Positions 20,838 through 46,781 of a stretch of DNA of 64,000 bases are shown one piece after another (position 1 is the stretch's first letter; each line of letters begins with the position of its first letter). The notes beneath the pieces are model-generated. The model was not told the origin of the DNA. It saw only the letters and a list, made by a program, of their open reading frames with translations, and made no database searches. Position numbers and translations under genes: made by a program. The stretch is taken from NCBI RefSeq assembly GCF_000377205.1, contig NZ_KB897910.1, positions 1 to 64,000 of the forward strand, in the 5' to 3' direction. Source of the DNA: Thioalkalivibrio sp. ALJ3. GTDB taxonomy: Bacteria > Pseudomonadota > Gammaproteobacteria > Ectothiorhodospirales > Ectothiorhodospiraceae.

Positions 20838-21410
20838 ATGGGCGCGGGTCGTCGGTCGCCGATCGGATTCCTGCTGGCGTGGTCGCTTGTCCTGGCGCTC
20901 GTTCCGGGTACGGCGCAGGCGCTGGAGATACGCGACGCTCGCCACCTGTGGATGGGCGATGACACTCTGCTCGTGCGCTTGATGCTCGACATGCGGCTGC
21001 CGCAGGTGCTGGAGGATGCGCTGGCCAACGGAGTCACGCTGGAGTTCGAGGCCGAGGCCCGGATCGAGCGCGATCGCTGGCTGGGCCGGGAAGACGTGCA
21101 GCGCGAGACACGCCGGGTCAAGCTGCAATACTTTGCGCTGAACCGATATTACCTGGTAACCGACGTGAACGACGACCGGATGGAGCTCAAACCGACCCTG
21201 GGCGATGCCCTGGAGCATGTGGCCCGACGGCTGGGGCGCCTGCCGATGCATGGCGTGCCGGAGGCGGTGCGCGAGCAGCCGGAAGACTACAACTTGGCGG
21301 CGCGCCTGTTGCTGGTGTATTCGGCGTTGCCCCTGCCGCTGCAGCTGGATGCCGGCCTGCGCGGTGACCTGACCACCCGGCGGGAATGGCACCGATGGTC
21401 CTTGGATTAG
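20838..21410 (+). CDS. DUF4390 exported protein between rsmB and ntrY
   Basis: A 190-residue protein with a signal peptide (GFLLAWSLVLALVPGTAQA) and a beta-rich remainder, matching the DUF4390 family usually found next to ntrY. Function unknown; a periplasmic partner of the NtrY sensor is a reasonable guess. The stop codon TAG (21408-21410) uses the first two bases of the repeat element at 21409. The C-terminal WHRWSLD looks family-typical, so the protein is probably complete. Confidence 0.85.
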   Translation: MGAGRRSPIGFLLAWSLVLALVPGTAQALEIRDARHLWMGDDTLLVRLMLDMRLPQVLEDALANGVTLEFEAEARIERDRWLGREDVQRETRRVKLQYFALNRYYLVTDVNDDRMELKPTLGDALEHVARRLGRLPMHGVPEAVREQPEDYNLAARLLLVYSALPLPLQLDAGLRGDLTTRREWHRWSLD

Positions 21411-21716
21411 GGAAATGCTGGTCAATGAACACGCTCGCGTTCGAGTCGCTTTTGCGTGCAAACAAGGCGCGGCGACTGCCGTGCAGTCATTCTGCGCAAG
21501 GGAATCGCAACGCCGCGCCCGTTTTTGTCAACAAAGGGAGGCCGGGCCCTTGCTCTCAATGGTTCGTGGAATGGGTACCCCAGGTTCCCCGATCCGGCGT
21601 TGCGGCCCGAATCAATCAAAAACGGGCCGGTAGAATTACTACGGGCTGCGGACCGTGCCTTGTCGCGGACAACCTGGGGTGCCAACGCGGGTGTTTACAT
21701 TGATCAGCGTTTCCCT
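21409..21716. mobile_element. MITE-like repeat element, copy A
   Basis: A 308-bp element bounded by imperfect terminal inverted repeats of about 32 bp (left AGGGAAATGCTGGTCAATGA, right ending in TTGATCAGCGTTTCCCT). It lies between the DUF4390 gene and ntrY. Inside are two inverted repeats: one with apex GTGCAG...CTGCGC, another from GGTACCCCAGGTT to AACCTGGGGTGCC. TA flanks both GGGAAA ends, possibly a target duplication. The left end supplies the DUF4390 stop; the right end reads in frame into ntrY. No transposase is encoded. Confidence 0.8.
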
Positions 21717-23910
21717 AAGACGCTTCCCTTGGGGCCTTCTGGGCATGGGCCTGCTGTTTCTGCTGCTGCTGACCTCGCTGGTGGTCATGGGCGGGGCGGC
21801 GCAGGATCAGGCCCGCTTCGAGCAGCTGTTCCTGTGGCTGCTGGTATTCCATGCCGCAATCCTCCTGGTGCTGGGTGGCCTGATCATCCACCAGTTCGTG
21901 CGTATGGTCGCCCAGTATCGCCAGGGTGTGCCCGGCAGCCGCCTGACACTGCGGCTGGTCGGGGGGTTCATGCTCGTCGCGGTGTTGCCCGTATCGGTGG
22001 TCTATTACTTTTCCTTCGAGTTTCTGAACGAGGGTGTGGACTCCTGGTTTGACGTACGCGTGGACTCCGCGCTGGAAGACGCCCTGGAACTGTCGCGCTC
22101 GTCGCTGGATCTGCGCGTGCGCCAGCTGGCCACCGAGACGCAGGAGATGATGAGCGAGCTGGAAGGGGTCTCCGAGGGCCTGGTCCCGCTGGCGCTGAAT
22201 GACTACCGCCGCCAGGTTGGAGCCCAGGAACTGACCCTGGTCGGCTCCAACAACCGCATCATTGCCTCCTCCACCGACAGCCCGATCCGCCGCCTGCCGA
22301 GTCCTCCGGGGGCCGATATCCTGATGCGGGTGCGCCCGGAGCAGCCGTATTCGCGGCTGGAACCGCAGCCCGATGGCTCGCTCGTGATTCGCGTGGTGGC
22401 CACTACCAGCAGTCGGCGCCCGGGGGCGGAGAACCGCATCCTGCAGGGGATCTATCCGGTGGACCCGCGCATGTCGGCCCTGTCGCAGCGGGTGGAGGAT
22501 GCCTTCGCCGGTTACCGCGAGTTCGCCTACCTGCGCGGTCCGATCATTCAGGGGTTTATCTTTACCCTGTCGCTGGCCCTGGCGATCTCGCTGATGGCGG
22601 CCCTGTGGGCCGGCCTGCTGGTCGCGCGGCGCATGGTGCGTCCGATCTCCGATCTGGTGCAGGGGACACGACTGGTGGCGGCCGGGGACTATTCCACCCG
22701 CCTGGCCGTGCAGCGGGCGGACGAGCTGGGCTTTCTCGTGCAGTCGTTCAACGCCATGACCCGAACGCTGAACGAGGCGCGTGACGAGGCCGAACGCAAC
22801 CGTCGTCTGCTGGACGCCGAGCGCGCGTATCTGGAGAGTGTCCTGCAGCATCTTCGTTCCGGCGTGCTGGCGCTGGACGGCAGTCTGCGCCTGCGCACCG
22901 CCAATGAAGCCGCCGGCCAGATCCTGGAGTGCAACCTGCAGGGTGCGCGCACCCGGTCGATCTCCGAGCTGGGCATCGAATGCCCGCTGGTGGGGCAGTT
23001 CTTCGAGGCGATCAACGATGCCCTGGCGCGCCAGGAAGACGAGTGGTCACGGCAGGTCGTTGTCTTCACCCGCTCCGGGCGCAAGGTGCTGATGACGCGC
23101 GCCGTCTGGCTGCCGACCTCGGGCTCCAGCCGCGGCCTTCACGCGATCGTGTTCGATGACATGACCGAGTTCCTGAAGGCGCAGCGCGACGCTGCCTGGG
23201 GCGAGGTGGCCCGGCGTCTGGCACACGAGATCAAGAATCCGCTGACCCCCATCCAGCTCTCCGCCGAACGCCTGTCGCGCCGACTGGGCAAGGTCCTGGA
23301 CGGCGCCGACCGCGAGGTCCTGGATCGTGCGACCAGTACCATCATTCAGCAGGTGGAGGCGATGAAGACACTGGTCAATGCCTTCCGTGATTACGCCCAG
23401 GCCCCGCGACTGGAGCTGGGGTCGGTGGACCTGAACCAGCTGATTCAGGATGTCTGCGAGCTGTATGTCGACTCCGACGGCCATTCCCTGGTGGAAACCG
23501 AACTGGAGCCGGATTTGCCCGGGATTCGTGGTGACGCCGGGCGCCTGCGTCAGTTGCTGCACAACCTGATCAAGAACGCGCTGGAGGCCGGCAAGGGCCA
23601 GGACACGTTCGCGGTGCATATCGCGACCGCCTATCTCGACGACCCGGCCGGGCCGCACATCGAACTGTGCGTGACCGATACCGGCCCGGGGATCAAGCCC
23701 GAGCTCCTGGAACGCATCTTCGAGCCCTACACGACGGACAAGCCACGTGGAACCGGTCTCGGTTTGGCGGTTGCACAGAAGATCGTCGAGGAACATGGCG
23801 GCATGATTGAGTGCCATAATGCACCGGCGGGCGAAGGCGGGGCCGTCTTTCGCATCCGCATCCCGGTGGAACATACCCCGCAGGCCCTGGCCCACGAGGA
23901 ACGGGAATGA
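21691..23910 (+). CDS. ntrY: NtrY-type membrane sensor histidine kinase
   Basis: About 739 residues. Several N-terminal membrane helices and a periplasmic-like segment lead to HAMP (about 313-367), PAS, and a HisKA phosphoacceptor at LAHEIKNPLTPIQL (His near 512). The ATPase boxes are HNLIKNALEAG, VTDTGPGI and GTGLGLAVA. The start is uncertain: GTG 21691 and TTG 21700 lie within the repeat element's right end, while ATG 21745 would begin inside the first helix. It overlaps ntrX by 4 nt. NtrYX pairs respond to nitrogen or redox state in other bacteria. Confidence 0.9.
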   Translation: MFTLISVSLRRFPWGLLGMGLLFLLLLTSLVVMGGAAQDQARFEQLFLWLLVFHAAILLVLGGLIIHQFVRMVAQYRQGVPGSRLTLRLVGGFMLVAVLPVSVVYYFSFEFLNEGVDSWFDVRVDSALEDALELSRSSLDLRVRQLATETQEMMSELEGVSEGLVPLALNDYRRQVGAQELTLVGSNNRIIASSTDSPIRRLPSPPGADILMRVRPEQPYSRLEPQPDGSLVIRVVATTSSRRPGAENRILQGIYPVDPRMSALSQRVEDAFAGYREFAYLRGPIIQGFIFTLSLALAISLMAALWAGLLVARRMVRPISDLVQGTRLVAAGDYSTRLAVQRADELGFLVQSFNAMTRTLNEARDEAERNRRLLDAERAYLESVLQHLRSGVLALDGSLRLRTANEAAGQILECNLQGARTRSISELGIECPLVGQFFEAINDALARQEDEWSRQVVVFTRSGRKVLMTRAVWLPTSGSSRGLHAIVFDDMTEFLKAQRDAAWGEVARRLAHEIKNPLTPIQLSAERLSRRLGKVLDGADREVLDRATSTIIQQVEAMKTLVNAFRDYAQAPRLELGSVDLNQLIQDVCELYVDSDGHSLVETELEPDLPGIRGDAGRLRQLLHNLIKNALEAGKGQDTFAVHIATAYLDDPAGPHIELCVTDTGPGIKPELLERIFEPYTTDKPRGTGLGLAVAQKIVEEHGGMIECHNAPAGEGGAVFRIRIPVEHTPQALAHEERE

Positions 23911-29542: not shown

Positions 29543-30364
29543 ATGCCCGAAGGCGATACCATCCACAAGCTGGCCCGGGCGCTGGGTCCGGTGCTGACCG
29601 GTGCTGCGCTGGAGTCTGTGTTGACCCGGTCGCGGTGTGGTGAGGCACTGGTGGAGCATGGGGCCATGGCTGCGCGTAACGTGAGTGCGCGCGGCAAGCA
29701 CCTGCTGATCGAGCTCAATGACGCCTCGGGCCGCGCCTGGCAGCTGCGCACGCACCTGGGGATGTACGGGACGTGGCACCAGTATGCGCCCGGGGCCGCC
29801 TGGCACAAGCCGGAGCACCAGGCCTGGGCCGTGCTGCGACTGGCGGACCGGGTGCTGGTCTGTTTCCATCCGCGCGAACTCGCCTGGCAGCCACAGCCGG
29901 AGGGGCGCGGCGACCCGGAGCGACTGGATGCACGCGTGGGGCCGGATCTGCTGGACCCGGAGGTCGACCTGACCGCCGTCGTACGACGTGTGCGCACCCG
30001 CAGCGACCCCGCGCGACCCGTCCTGGACGTGCTGCTGGATCAGTCGCTGGCGTCCGGCATCGGGAACATCTACAAGTCGGAGGTGCTGTTCCTGCTCGGG
30101 CGATATCCACTCGACCCGGTCGGTGTGATTGCGGATGACGAGCTCCTGGCGCTCTACCGCGAAGCGGCGCGCCTGTTGCGGCGCAACCTCAAGCCCGGTC
30201 CACGCATCACGCGCGAACGGGCCGAGACGGACGAGTATCTACTCGTGTACGGGCGCGGCGGGCAGGCCTGCCGCACGTGCGGGACAGCGGTGGAGCGTGC
30301 GCTCGCGGGCGAGCACCTGCGTTCCACCTACTGGTGCCCGTCCTGTCAGCCAGGGAAACATTGA
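29543..30364 (+). CDS. nei: Nei-type endonuclease VIII (Fpg/Nei family DNA glycosylase)
   Basis: A 273-residue base-excision repair glycosylase/AP lyase. The N-terminus MPEGDTIHK (catalytic Pro2, Glu3) is the Nei variant, not the MPELPE of Fpg. Lys52 sits in ARGKHLLI, the helix-two-turn-helix has SGIGNIYKSEVLF, and a zinc finger has CRTCG and CPSC. The last residues (PGKH) and the TGA stop lie inside the palindromic repeat at 30350-30379, so the native C-terminus was probably altered by a few residues. Confidence 0.9.
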   Translation: MPEGDTIHKLARALGPVLTGAALESVLTRSRCGEALVEHGAMAARNVSARGKHLLIELNDASGRAWQLRTHLGMYGTWHQYAPGAAWHKPEHQAWAVLRLADRVLVCFHPRELAWQPQPEGRGDPERLDARVGPDLLDPEVDLTAVVRRVRTRSDPARPVLDVLLDQSLASGIGNIYKSEVLFLLGRYPLDPVGVIADDELLALYREAARLLRRNLKPGPRITRERAETDEYLLVYGRGGQACRTCGTAVERALAGEHLRSTYWCPSCQPGKH

Positions 30365-30379
30365 TCAGTGGTTCCCTGG
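30350..30379. repeat. Minimal palindromic form of the MITE-like element
   Basis: CCAGGGAAACATTGATCAGT continuing to GGTTCCCTGG is a near-perfect palindrome made of the two element ends fused head to head around TGATCA. Internal sequence is absent. It carries the nei stop codon. An overlapping perfect hairpin, GGTTCCC-TG-GGGAACC (30370-30385), could act as a transcription stop, though no T-run follows. Confidence 0.75.
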
Positions 30380-33989: not shown

Positions 33990-34586
33990 TCAGGTCTTTT
34001 CCTGGCGCGCGGAGACGCCGGCGGTCAGGGCGTAGCGCATCGCGTCTTCCAGCGACATATCGAGCGGTTCCACGCGGCTGCGCGGCAGCATCAGCGTGTA
34101 GCCGCCGATCTGGTAGCTCATCGGTGTGTATACGGCGATGGTTTCCGGGCCGCCCAGGTTGTCCGGTAGTCCCTCGAAATCCTCGCGGGTGACAAACCCG
34201 ACCAGCTTGAAGTCGCTGCCCGGGAAGGTGACCAGCACGGCCTGTCCGAAGCGCTGGTGGATGTCGCCGGAAAGGAGATTCGTTACGTCGCGCACGGTCC
34301 CGTGGATGGTCTTGACCACCGGGATGCGCTGCATCAGCGATTCCATCCAGTCGAACAGGCCGCGTACCACATAGGCCTGCAGCAGTACGCCCAGTGCGAA
34401 CACGAGCACCAGCCCGGCGAGGATGCCCAGGCCCGGGAAATACAGGGCATCGGGCAGGATCGCGCGCAACAGCCCGCCCAGGACAGTTTCCGCTGTGGTG
34501 CCCAGCCACCAGAGCAGGGCCAGGGTGATGACCAGCGGCAGGATGGCCGCCAGGCCGGTCAGGAAGGTCCGGGAAATCTTGCGCAC
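33990..34586 (-). CDS. DUF502 family membrane protein
   Basis: A 198-residue inner-membrane protein with two N-terminal helices (about 8-30 and 50-75), the segment GSDFKLVGFVTRE and the typical FTPMSYQIGGYTLMLPRS-like block (here YTPMSYQIGG). The family's role is unknown. The GTG at 34586 is chosen because GGAG lies 7 nt upstream and the family start RKISRTFLTGL follows. A longer frame runs through the repeat element (copy B), whose edge is only 17 nt upstream. Confidence 0.87.
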   Translation of the reverse strand: MRKISRTFLTGLAAILPLVITLALLWWLGTTAETVLGGLLRAILPDALYFPGLGILAGLVLVFALGVLLQAYVVRGLFDWMESLMQRIPVVKTIHGTVRDVTNLLSGDIHQRFGQAVLVTFPGSDFKLVGFVTREDFEGLPDNLGGPETIAVYTPMSYQIGGYTLMLPRSRVEPLDMSLEDAMRYALTAGVSARQEKT

Positions 34587-34602
34587 TTGCAGTCTCCATC
34601 CT

Positions 34603-34886
34603 AGGGAAACACTGATCAATGTACACGTCGCGCTCGAGTCGCTTTTGCGTGCGAACAAGGCGCGGTGAGCGCAGTGTAGCCGAGCTACATAAGCGAGCCG
34701 CAACGCCGTACGCACGCAAAAGCGGCCGAGCCCCTGCTGTTCAATGGTTTGTGGGGTTGGCACCCCAGGTTCCCCGATCCTGCGTTGCGCCGCTTGCGGG
34801 TAGAACCACTACCCGCTGCACGACGCTCCTTGTCTCGGAAAACCTGGGGTACCAACGCGAGCGTGTACATTGATCAGTGTTTCCCT
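34603..34886. mobile_element. MITE-like repeat element, copy B
   Basis: A 284-bp element and the cleanest copy. The terminal inverted repeats are identical over at least 24 bp (AGGGAAACACTGATCAATGT onward). Hairpin 1 (34641-34723) has a perfect 13-bp outer stem GCTTTTGCGTGCG/CGCACGCAAAAGC and an apex TGTAGC-CGA-GCTACA. Hairpin 2 (34756-34856) runs from GTTGGCACCCCAGG to CCTGGGGTACCAAC with the tip GCGGGTAG-AACCA-CTACCCGC. It lies between the divergent DUF502 and metallo-hydrolase genes and has no transposase. Confidence 0.85.
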
Positions 34887-34994
34887 GGGGGAGGCCCCGA
34901 TGCTACCAGTTTCGGGCGCGCAGGCGCCGCTCCGCACTTTGTGGGGGTTGGCGGGTCTATTCTTCACAATCGAGAATATCCGGGGGTTATTGCG

Positions 34995-39050: not shown

Positions 39051-41108
39051 CTACTTGCCGAGCATGGCCTTCAGGCCAGCCAGGTGGGCCTGGGCGGTGA
39101 GTTTCTGCGTCTCGGGGTCCGGTGGTCTGGCGTCCGGCCATTCGAGGTGTTCTTCGGGTAGCTCGTCGAGAAAACGCGAGGGTTCGCAGTCGATGGTCTC
39201 GCCGTAGCGGCTCCGGTTCTGGGCGTAGGTGATCAGCAGGGTCTGCTGGGCGCGGGTCAGCCCGACATAGGCGAGACGCCGCTCTTCCTCGATGGAGTCG
39301 TCCTCCACGCTGACCCGGTGCGGCAGCAGCTCTTCCTCGAAACCCACCAGGCAGACATGCGGGAACTCCAGGCCCTTGGCGGTGTGCAGGGTCAGCAGTT
39401 GCACCGATTCGTCGCCGTCCTGGGCTTCGCGGTTGCGGTCGAGTATGTCCATCAGGCTGATGCGGTTGACGATGTCGGCCAGATCCATCGTTTGGTCGTC
39501 GTCCGCCTCGTCGTCGCCGTACTCGGCCGTGGTGTTGCCACCACCCATGCGCCCGACCCAGTCGATGAACTCGCGCACGTTCTCCATGCGCCGGGTCGCG
39601 GCACGCGGGTTGGGACTGTTCTCCAGTAGCCACGATTCGTAGTCGATGTCCTCAATCAGGGCGCGCAGCAGTGCGTCCGGGGCCTCGTCTTCGCCGCGGC
39701 GCTGGAAGCCGTCGACCCAGTCGGTAAAGCGCTCCAGACGTGCCTGCGCACGGGCGTCCATGTACTCGGACAGGCCGGCCCCCCGTGCGGCCTGCAATAG
39801 CGAAGTCCCGCGCTGGTTGGCGTAGTGGCCCAGCTTCTCCAGTGTGGCCGGACCGATCTCGCGGCGCGGCACATTGACCACGCGCAGGAAGGCGGTGTTG
39901 TCGTCGGGGTTGGCGAGCAGGCGCAGGTAGGCGACCAGGTCCTTGATCTCGGCCTTCTCGAAGAACGACTGGCCGCCACTCAGGCGGTAGGGGATGCCCT
40001 GCTCGCGCAGGAGCTTCTCGAACAGCCTGGACTGGTGGTTACTGCGGTAGAGGATCGCGAACTCGCCCCAGCCCGCATTCAGGCGAAAGCGCCGGCGCAT
40101 CAGTTCGGAGACCACGCGCGCGGCCTCGGTGTCGGCGTCGGAGCAGCCGATCACCTCGATCTTCTCGCCCTCGCCGAGTGCACTCCACAGGCGTTTCTCG
40201 AACACGTGGGGGTTGTTGGCGATCAGTGCGTTCGCGGTGTGCAGGATGCGGTTGGTGGAGCGGTAGTTCTGCTCCAGCTTGATCACCTCCAGGCGCGGGA
40301 AGTCCTGCTGCAGACGTGCGAGGTTCTCCGGGCGGGCGCCGCGCCATGCATAGATCGACTGATCGTCGTCGCCAACCACCGTCAGGCCGTCGCTGACGCC
40401 GACCAGCAGGCGCACCAGTTGGTACTGCGCGGAGTTGGTGTCCTGGTACTCGTCCACCAGCAGGTGTCGGATGCGGTCCTGCCAGCGGTTGCGCAGTTCC
40501 GGGTCCTCGCGCAGGCAGTCCACCGGGCGCTTGATCAGGTCGTCGAAGTCCACCGCGTTGTAGGCGCGCAGGGCGTCCTCGTAGCGCGGGTAGAGGTTGG
40601 CCGCGGCGAGCGCCTCCGGCGCGTCGCTCATCTGACTGGCCTCGTGCAGCGCCGCTTCCGGCGTCATCAGGTCGTTCTTCCAACGGCTGATGTGGCCAAT
40701 CAGGGCGTCGACCTCGGAGCTGGTATCGTCACGGTAGGTGATCTCGCGCAGCAGTGAGCGGCAGTCGCCCGGGTCGAGGATGGAGAAGCCGGGACGCAGC
40801 CCGGCCGCGGCCAGTTCGCGGCGCAGGAAATTCAGCCCGAAGGTGTGGAAGGTCGAAACATTCAGCCCGCGTGCCTGTTCGTTCGAGAGCCGTCCCTGGA
40901 CACGTTCACGCATCTCGCGCGCAGCCTTGTTGGTAAAGGTGATTGCGACAATCCGGCGCGCCTCGACTCCGCGCTGTTCGATCAGGTGCGCGATCTTCTC
41001 GGTGATCACGCGGGTCTTGCCCGAGCCCGCTCCGGCCAGCACCAGCAGGGGGCGGTCCGTGGTGGTCACGGCCGCCTGTTGTTGCGGATTTAGGGAAATA
41101 CTGATCAA
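39051..41108 (-). CDS. rep: ATP-dependent DNA helicase Rep
   Basis: A 685-residue superfamily 1 helicase that restarts stalled replication forks. It has Walker A GAGSGKT, DEYQDTN, GDDDQSIYAWRGARP, KLEQNYRST and TLHTAKGLEFPHV; alignment to E. coli Rep is close throughout. The native start should precede LNPQQQAAV, but no ATG is there. The only nearby initiator is TTG 41108 inside the left end of repeat copy C (MISISLNPQQQ), with GAGGG 6 nt upstream. An in-frame ATG at 41180 also lies inside the element. Confidence 0.94.
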   Translation of the reverse strand: MISISLNPQQQAAVTTTDRPLLVLAGAGSGKTRVITEKIAHLIEQRGVEARRIVAITFTNKAAREMRERVQGRLSNEQARGLNVSTFHTFGLNFLRRELAAAGLRPGFSILDPGDCRSLLREITYRDDTSSEVDALIGHISRWKNDLMTPEAALHEASQMSDAPEALAAANLYPRYEDALRAYNAVDFDDLIKRPVDCLREDPELRNRWQDRIRHLLVDEYQDTNSAQYQLVRLLVGVSDGLTVVGDDDQSIYAWRGARPENLARLQQDFPRLEVIKLEQNYRSTNRILHTANALIANNPHVFEKRLWSALGEGEKIEVIGCSDADTEAARVVSELMRRRFRLNAGWGEFAILYRSNHQSRLFEKLLREQGIPYRLSGGQSFFEKAEIKDLVAYLRLLANPDDNTAFLRVVNVPRREIGPATLEKLGHYANQRGTSLLQAARGAGLSEYMDARAQARLERFTDWVDGFQRRGEDEAPDALLRALIEDIDYESWLLENSPNPRAATRRMENVREFIDWVGRMGGGNTTAEYGDDEADDDQTMDLADIVNRISLMDILDRNREAQDGDESVQLLTLHTAKGLEFPHVCLVGFEEELLPHRVSVEDDSIEEERRLAYVGLTRAQQTLLITYAQNRSRYGETIDCEPSRFLDELPEEHLEWPDARPPDPETQKLTAQAHLAGLKAMLGK

Positions 41109-41405
41109 TGGACACCCTCGCGCTCGAGTCGCTTTTGCGTGGGAACAAGGCGCGGTGACTGCCGTGCAGTCATTCTGCACAAGGGAGCCGCAACGCAGTT
41201 CCCGCGCCCGTTTTTGATAACAACGGGCGGCCGAGCCCCTTCGTTCATTAAGCTGTGGGGTTGGTACCCCCTGTTCCCCGATCCGGCGTTGCGCCCCGAA
41301 TCCATCAAGAACGGGCGGGTAGAACCACTACCCGCCGCACGACGCGCCTTGTCTCGGAAAACCTGGGGTACCAACGCGAGTGTGTACATTGATCAGTGTT
41401 TCCCT
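41092..41405. mobile_element. MITE-like repeat element, copy C
   Basis: A 314-bp element with terminal inverted repeats of about 32 bp (left AGGGAAATACTGATCAATGG, right ending in TTGATCAGTGTTTCCCT). Hairpin 1 has apex GTGCAG-TCATT-CTGCAC, so it pairs with different bases from copy B. Hairpin 2 keeps the tip GCGGGTAG-AACCA-CTACCCGC. The left end overlaps the start of rep by 17 nt; the right end lies 150 nt before the entericidin-like gene. Confidence 0.85.
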
Positions 41406-46729: not shown

Positions 46730-46760
46730 AGGGAAACATTGACCAATTCACACACTCGCG
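46730..46760. repeat. Solo end of the MITE-like element
   Basis: AGGGAAACATTGACCAATTC followed by ACACACTCGCG matches one terminal inverted repeat of the elements at 21409, 34603 and 41092. The rest of the element is absent. It lies between prmA and the DUF3426 gene, 21 nt past the prmA stop. It is best explained as a remnant. Confidence 0.65.
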
Positions 46761-46781
46761 GACCGGGCGCGTGCGCATACG

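Follow-up and report, generated by a model that had tools for sequence, protein, structure and literature searches.

The usual view of bacterial MITEs is that they are host-specific remnants left by the decay of single insertion sequences (ISs). The ERIC (or IRU) elements of Enterobacteria are palindromic intergenic repeats with terminal inverted repeats (TIRs). The repeat that we describe here, from the first 64,000 nucleotides of a contig of Thioalkalivibrio sp. ALJ3 (the window), resembles several described systems in part. Like the IS5-derived MITEs (IS5 group, YTAR targets), it is ~300 bp long, contains no transposase, and has TIRs that match an IS5-family element and 4-bp YTAR-type flanks; unlike them, it has an interior that does not look IS-like, it carries one IS end at both sides, and its core is common to elements with other ends. 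It is palindromic, intergenic, and bounded by TIRs, as ERIC is. The Correia/NEMIS elements of Neisseria are also structured repeats bounded by TIRs, and the one copy examined has ACAAGGCG and GCAACGCCG near both ends, but we recognised no two-module plan in them. TIMEs are non-autonomous miniature elements as well, but with Tn3-family ends, and we know of no folded core that they share. The available text of PMC4133298 presents TIMEs as Tn3-derived inverted-repeat miniature elements that are non-autonomous and depend on an IS or transposon family. REPs, REPINs, and TIRtrons have inverted hairpin pairs and a high copy number, as our repeat does; according to the available text of PMC3733652, REPs are 20–40 bp long and tagged GTAG or CGTC, and the GTAG REPs are linked to tyrosine transposases. 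Our repeat is a MITE, which is a known kind of element, and the new part is a shared core with exchangeable ends. We found no published description of this core, which is a weak negative, as subscription papers were mostly outside the search.

The best reading, in which we have considerable confidence, is that an IS5-family transposase moves the repeat in trans and that the repeat belongs to a widespread superfamily of MITEs whose folded core is conserved and whose ends are exchangeable. A preliminary description of this DNA had likened the repeat to Correia and ERIC elements. The likeness stands for the architecture; for the ~54-nt module of the core, which we represent with a covariance model (R1, see below), it was absent at the ERIC locus searched and weak in Correia. 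At one E. coli ERIC locus (844 bases), the best R1 match scored 2.1 bits and lay away from the repeat. For Correia/NEMIS, we began with 16 viral-contig stretches that have the end pattern and searched the 6 with two close, opposed ends. The R1 matches at these two-ended loci were weak (8.9–13.8 bits, E 0.02–0.95, none of them significant), and they fell partly inside and partly outside the repeat. Membership in ERIC is not supported, and the same can be said of Correia only tentatively.

The window contains three copies, each of 280–310 bp, which share the TIR type GGAAAC-ACTGATCAATG, the internal plan, and the length. The mobile unit proper is GGAAA...TTTCC and lies on the forward strand at 21411–21714 (copy A), 34605–34884 (copy B, GGAAAC...GTTTCC), and 41094–41403 (copy C). 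The preliminary description had placed the copies correctly but had included two bases of the palindromic flank at each side in its ends. In copy B, the left TIR (34605–34633, forward strand) and the right TIR (34856–34884, reverse strand) are 96% complementary across 28 nt; the left target flank is CTAG (34601–34604), and the right flank differs from it (CTGG, 34885–34888). A search of the window with a TIR pattern, allowing up to 3 mismatches, gave 10 matches, as compared to 0.03 expected. Six are the ends of A, B, and C; the claim of three copies with long shared TIRs holds. Two more overlap in a solo 26-bp palindrome (30352–30377), a scar in which both TIR ends of a copy that has been lost are fused. 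The others are a one-ended remnant with a degenerate TIR (46730–46765, forward strand) and a match at 23362 (3 mismatches) that is perhaps due to chance.

Three copies in such a short stretch had suggested that the genome holds many, and it does. Across the ALJ3 genome (2.63 Mb in 12 contigs), the TIR pattern had 131 matches versus 1 control match, and a second pattern, which catches mostly a second type of TIR, had 48 versus 0. The first whole-genome query gave at least 40 long matches (40 of 104 first-look candidates were scored). We then catalogued copies in the fetched loci with a script that requires both ends and an internal marker and that drops one-ended copies and those at contig ends. 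Of the 83 elements in this catalogue, 59 are from ALJ3, which therefore has at least 59 two-ended copies, all of them distinct. Several of its contigs end in or near a copy, which fits a repeat that breaks assemblies. Relatives have further copies as well: among 24 congeners, the repeat's DNA sequence had strong matches in 12 and none in the other 12.

Congeners also reveal where the element begins and ends. At locus A, G041 lacks the element, and G020, G001, and G040 have it; at locus B, it is missing from G020 and G040 but present in G041 and G001; and at locus C, G041 again lacks it, and G020 and G040 have it (for G001, we recovered just one flank). For three of the four empty sites, the difference in length from the filled site is the unit plus exactly 4 bp, and the fourth (G040 at locus B) is off by one base. 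Conversely, near position 33994 of the window, ALJ3, G041, G001, and G020 have no element and G040, G010, and G008 have a related one. The ends of the element therefore coincide with insertion differences between strains, for all three copies in the window, and neither of the two findings that would have overturned the preliminary description was made.

The flanks are YTAR-like: out of 166, 76 are CTAG, 20 are TTAG, 18 are CCAG, and 12 are TTAA. An exact 4-bp direct repeat flanks 27 of 82 copies from ALJ3 and its congeners (22 CTAG and 5 TTAA), while an exact 5-bp repeat flanks 3 of the 82 and a 6-bp repeat flanks none. A, B, and C are without an exact 4-bp duplication (TTAG/CTAA, CTAG/CTGG, and TTAG/CTGG, respectively). 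A simple TA target, which is suggested by TA|GGG...CCC|TA at copy A, is disfavoured by an IS copy with GTAG at both sides (L138, see below) and by the lengths of the empty sites, which fit 4 bp. Three copies (L003, L044, and L047) have CTTAG at both sides in place of the 4-bp repeat and look as if one extra base had moved with the element. Besides CTAG, a frequent flank is CCAG with GG after it (18 of the 166, from the 83 catalogued copies), which is presumably the change to be expected from very-short-patch repair at CTAGG. Also, copy A sits exactly in a stop codon (window 21408–21410), which is TAG here and TAA in the empty relative. Because YTAR targets contain stop codons, insertions at the ends of genes may be nearly neutral.

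The preliminary description had proposed looking for an autonomous, IS5-like relative with the same ends, and congeners do carry one: a ~1.2-kb IS5-family element whose ends match those of the repeat. We found this IS in five congeners (three copies in G040, two in G012, and also in G021, G022, and G010), and three others (G006, G008, and G004) have fragments or weak matches to the transposase. The protein belongs to IS5_4 (NCBIfam; 319 bits versus a cut-off of 140) and has the domains DUF772 and DDE_Tnp_1; its closest named relatives are from Thioalkalivibrio sp. ALJ24 (89–93% identity). Among 30 genomes from the genus, 5 encode near-full-length partner transposases (91–100% identity) and 8 have any match, two of these being weak (32–39% identity). 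All 8 genomes contain the repeat, and none of the 12 congeners that lack a repeat match has the transposase. The copies of the repeat contain no transposase, as claimed earlier, and the ALJ3 genome has no match to the partner transposase or to DDE_Tnp_1 (PF01609). Because the partner was not found in this genome, its set of repeats looks orphaned at present.

We looked for TIR-like ends in 30 fetched PF01609 loci from the congeners (17 in a second script), and every locus with repeat-type ends on both sides of the transposase belongs to the IS5_4-type group. One IS copy is inserted in the CTAG flank of a MITE. The transposase-proximal end of the IS is GGARACRCTGATTTAWTC in most copies, the distal end is GGAAACGCTGATCAATGG or close to it, and the left and right ends of seven IS copies from the genus differ at 6–8 of 20 positions. 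Such asymmetry is common in this group of ISs (mean left-right difference of 6.2 of 20 positions, using 48 of 80 related loci). In the 44 loci for which the script recognised both ends, the upstream end was GATTTAT or GATTTAA in 26, and the downstream end was GATCAAT in 15 and GAACAAA or GAACAAT in 11. The MITEs are symmetric by comparison: type 1 has the distal-type IS end at both sides, and type 2 has the proximal-type end at both sides. Beyond ~20 bp, the ends of the IS and the interior of the MITE look unrelated (as compared by eye). We infer that the IS5-family transposase moves the repeats in trans. Specifically, the IS5_4-type transposase of several Thioalkalivibrio species would recognise the outer ~20 bp (GGAARCRCTGATNNAAT) and would leave a 4-bp duplication of a YTAR target, which is usually CTAG or TTAA. 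Overall, the many copies, the TIRs, the YTAR-type flanks, the empty sites in congeners, and the IS5-family element with the same ends bear out the initial view of the repeat as a non-autonomous mobile element.

Within a copy, the left and right TIRs tend to carry the same variants. Across 40 type-1 copies from ALJ3, there were 28 left-right mismatches over 20 nt, as compared to an average of 99 and never fewer than 83 across 2,000 shuffles (which ignore the kinship of the copies). The two arms were identical in 21 of the 40 copies versus 2.8 after shuffling, and 90 of the 118 deviating arm positions were matched by the same deviation in the opposite arm. (Of the 59 ALJ3 copies, L080 and L083 were left out because an end does not start with GGA.) The 24 copies from congeners agree (11 mismatches versus 34 shuffled). 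For the 17 type-2 copies, the effect was weak because there is little variation: there were 12 mismatches versus 19.8 shuffled, and some shuffles reach 12. Also, across 32 aligned ALJ3 copies, 16 of the 28 TIR pairs have double changes. Plain descent of the two ends does not explain why they would converge on new shared variants, and copying from arm to arm would explain it, although selection on the hairpin would also yield matching arms. That template switching can homogenise the arms of inverted repeats is documented in general in the available text of PMC8604942. One copy (L102) combines type-2 ends with one half of a type-1 arm. It is a plausible half-converted intermediate and the only possible instance of a switch of ends that we found.

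The interior is highly structured. When folded as DNA, copy B has an energy of -104.5 kcal/mol, as compared to a mean of -53.4 for shuffled sequences (z = -12.3), and it forms a three-way junction made of the TIR stem and two arms, which are the two internal hairpins that had been noticed at the outset. Each arm is an outer stem that encloses a ~54-nt module with fixed outer letters (ACAAGGCG...GCAACGCCG). The two modules are inverted relative to each other, with a short linker between them. In 32 aligned ALJ3 copies, the linker is CCCCTTCGGGG (10 copies), CCCCTTGGGG (8 copies), CCCCTCCGGGG (1 copy), or a longer CCCC...GGGG stretch (13 copies, including copy B). In an alignment of whole elements (32 ALJ3 copies of 255–285 bp, with the structure taken from copy B), 95.1% of cells were paired, and there were 132 double-change cells versus 38 after shuffling and 8–18 in slid controls.

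To describe the module by itself, we trained R1 on 27 modules that were picked from pattern matches in ALJ3 and about 20 other genomes; R1 matches in those genomes arise by construction. Considering just the pairs that lie outside the pattern, 83.3% of cells in the 27-module alignment were paired versus 64.5% shuffled, there were 101 double-change cells versus 39.9 shuffled, and the covariation score was 0.484, as compared to 0.171 after shuffling and no more than 0.10 in slid controls. Pairs that show any double change numbered 12, which was not above the shuffles (11.5). In the window, R1 finds both modules in all three copies, and the next best match has E = 0.15. The first module of each copy is on the forward strand (A, 21462–21515, E = 3.1e-16; B, 34655–34708, 63.4 bits, E = 3.3e-19; C, 41145–41198, E = 4.9e-15) and the second is on the reverse strand (A, 21595–21663, E = 9.7e-7; B, 34780–34833, 40.2 bits, E = 2.5e-11; C, 41284–41352, E = 2.5e-8). 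The first module of copy B was in the training set and its second module was not.

Folds as stable as these raise the alternative that the core is an RNA device (a terminator, an RNase III substrate, an mRNA stabiliser, or a small RNA) that is under selection at the level of the transcript, with mobility being secondary. There are MITEs, NEMIS and ERIC among them, that are transcribed and influence mRNA, according to the available text of PMC3733652. The raw counts also point this way, with more G-T than A-C cells both in the five helix groups of the ALJ3 copies (117 versus 40) and in the modules (28 versus 13). This excess comes from certain paired columns in which most copies have G-T; with G-T-consensus columns set aside, the two kinds of cell are equally frequent (40 versus 39 in the ALJ3 copies and 15 versus 13 in the modules), whereas selection on the RNA of one strand should favour G-U in the remaining columns too. 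Because the counts are equal after the exclusion and unequal before it, the test is only partly clear, and it slightly reduces our confidence in the main reading. Furthermore, searches of the window and of nine other loci gave no Rfam family at the gathering score, and the insertions differ between congeners. We consider an RNA device to be unlikely.

Two inverted hairpins with a short linker also resemble REP doublets, and REP families are reported from Thioalkalivibrio in the available text of PMC3733652. Still, the long GGAAAC TIRs, the 4-bp YTAR-type flanks, and the IS5-family element with the same ends are features of DDE transposition, and we think that there is very little chance that these are REP/RAYT-type elements whose hairpin modules are recognised by a tyrosine (HUH) transposase.

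Returning to the reading of a superfamily with a conserved core, we asked how far the module extends. Because similar letters occur in other repeats, we searched 369 genomes from the class with the bare seed pattern (ACAAGGCGN{28,58}GCAACGCCG) and found it in 49 of them. Outside the genus, it had 89 matches in 47 genomes, as compared to 11 matches in 11 genomes for the reversed pattern. Although the pattern allows 45–75 nt, 58 of the 88 listed places outside the genus were 53–56 nt long; many of the others look like chance matches. R1 had matches (E of 0.001) in 124 of the 369 class genomes and 99 of 271 genera, and 68 genomes had at least five matches. In a sample of 398 genomes from the phylum, R1 matched 98: 39 inside the class and 59 outside it, and 44 of those 59 are from one family with genomes of 1–3 Mb. 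These surveys used stricter filters and scored up to 15 (class) or 14 (phylum) candidates per genome; at this threshold, about 0.4 false genomes are expected per survey if the E values, which are rough, were exact.

The matches in other bacteria often look like whole elements. Of 40 stretches from 16 other genomes, 35 had flanking inverted repeats, spanning 194–291 bp in 33 cases and ~166 bp in 2 cases; the other 5 stretches are cut off by contig ends. Among 45 loci from other genomes, 23 had a second, inverted module at E of 0.05 and 22 did not. Many loci have a recurring order of TIR, outer stem, module, outer stem, and a linker similar to CCTTCGGG. We folded one whole foreign element, from G054, as RNA, and it formed a three-way junction like that of copy B (z = -16.2). 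The same module, often in the same plan, occurs between differing ends in a large part of the Gammaproteobacteria and, elsewhere in the phylum, in one more family.

Could this instead be an ordinary IS5-derived MITE family that is confined to Thioalkalivibrio, with the modules found elsewhere being convergent hairpins caught by a permissive model? The repeat's DNA sequence does have strong matches inside the genus only, with a single weak match (G039) among 15 genomes outside it. Also, the 17-base seed pattern guarantees that the training set has the fixed ends, and many single pattern matches, like single low-scoring model matches, may be due to chance. However, a confined family does not readily account for the excess over the reversed pattern, for the narrow range of lengths, for the strong covariation of pairs outside the pattern, or for the second inverted modules and the junction in G054, and we view it as improbable. 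Two side observations concern the modules. Modules in G064, G169, and G332 are longer (74–75 nt); they share the fixed ends, have a longer inner stem, and are perhaps a second class. One 1.1-kb stretch (L324) has a third module match (941–994, 37.2 bits) that is ~300 bases from a full element.

Although the module is shared, the ends are not. The TIRs of 16 representatives from 13 genomes form eight clusters (with an analyst-chosen threshold of 14 of 20 and shuffle p of 0.01, and leaving out the short second element type of G285), or fairly, seven or eight types, because the end of L272 seems intermediate between two clusters. In comparisons between clusters, the TIR score is 8.5 of 20, and the module score is 37 of 54 versus 23 shuffled with the fixed ends included; without the fixed ends, the identity of the modules is 0.58 versus 0.41 shuffled. 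G341, G381, and G285 each have two types of TIR with the module. One cluster, from ALJ3, G375, and G187, is IS5_4-like, and it is the sole cluster that we tied to an IS.

Ends are probably exchanged by copying from arm to arm. Because the element is nearly palindromic, one arm could be copied repeatedly onto the other by template switching in the fold-back strand. This would keep both TIRs alike and could also carry an IS end that was newly gained at one side over to the other, which would let a lineage switch to another transposase. More broadly, these may be phylum-wide structured DNA parasites whose heritable part is the three-way-junction core, with fold-back copying having let one core lineage exploit many unrelated ISs in turn; Correia-like, end-symmetric repeats may be distant members. 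We put forward this wider proposal tentatively, as somewhat less probable than its opposite. With the module in about a third of the sampled class genomes and appearing to outlive its ends, the origin and persistence of MITEs become directly testable. The set in Thioalkalivibrio has a same-ended IS, two subfamilies of ends, a possible half-converted copy, and empty sites in congeners, and it is well suited to studying end conversion, palindrome-driven deletion, and transposase switching.

Folding back may also lead to deletions that leave short palindromic scars. We saw eight short palindromes of two fused ends in the ALJ3 genome, and four of them are exact or near matches to a deletion between the copies of TGATCA that both TIRs contain. 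Palindrome-stimulated deletion would explain these scars. At the 30352 site, G041, G020, and G001 have a 41-bp one-ended remnant, G042 has a diverged element of 212 bp, and G022 and G024 are empty; the congeners here show an element that decayed differently. G022 carries a scar and a nested element at the 33994 site. Near two scars (L084 at ~1290 and L095 at ~1600), there is a second repeat, AAGAAGCACTGAATAAAGCCATC...GGCTTTCTCAGCGC, which may be another short mobile repeat.
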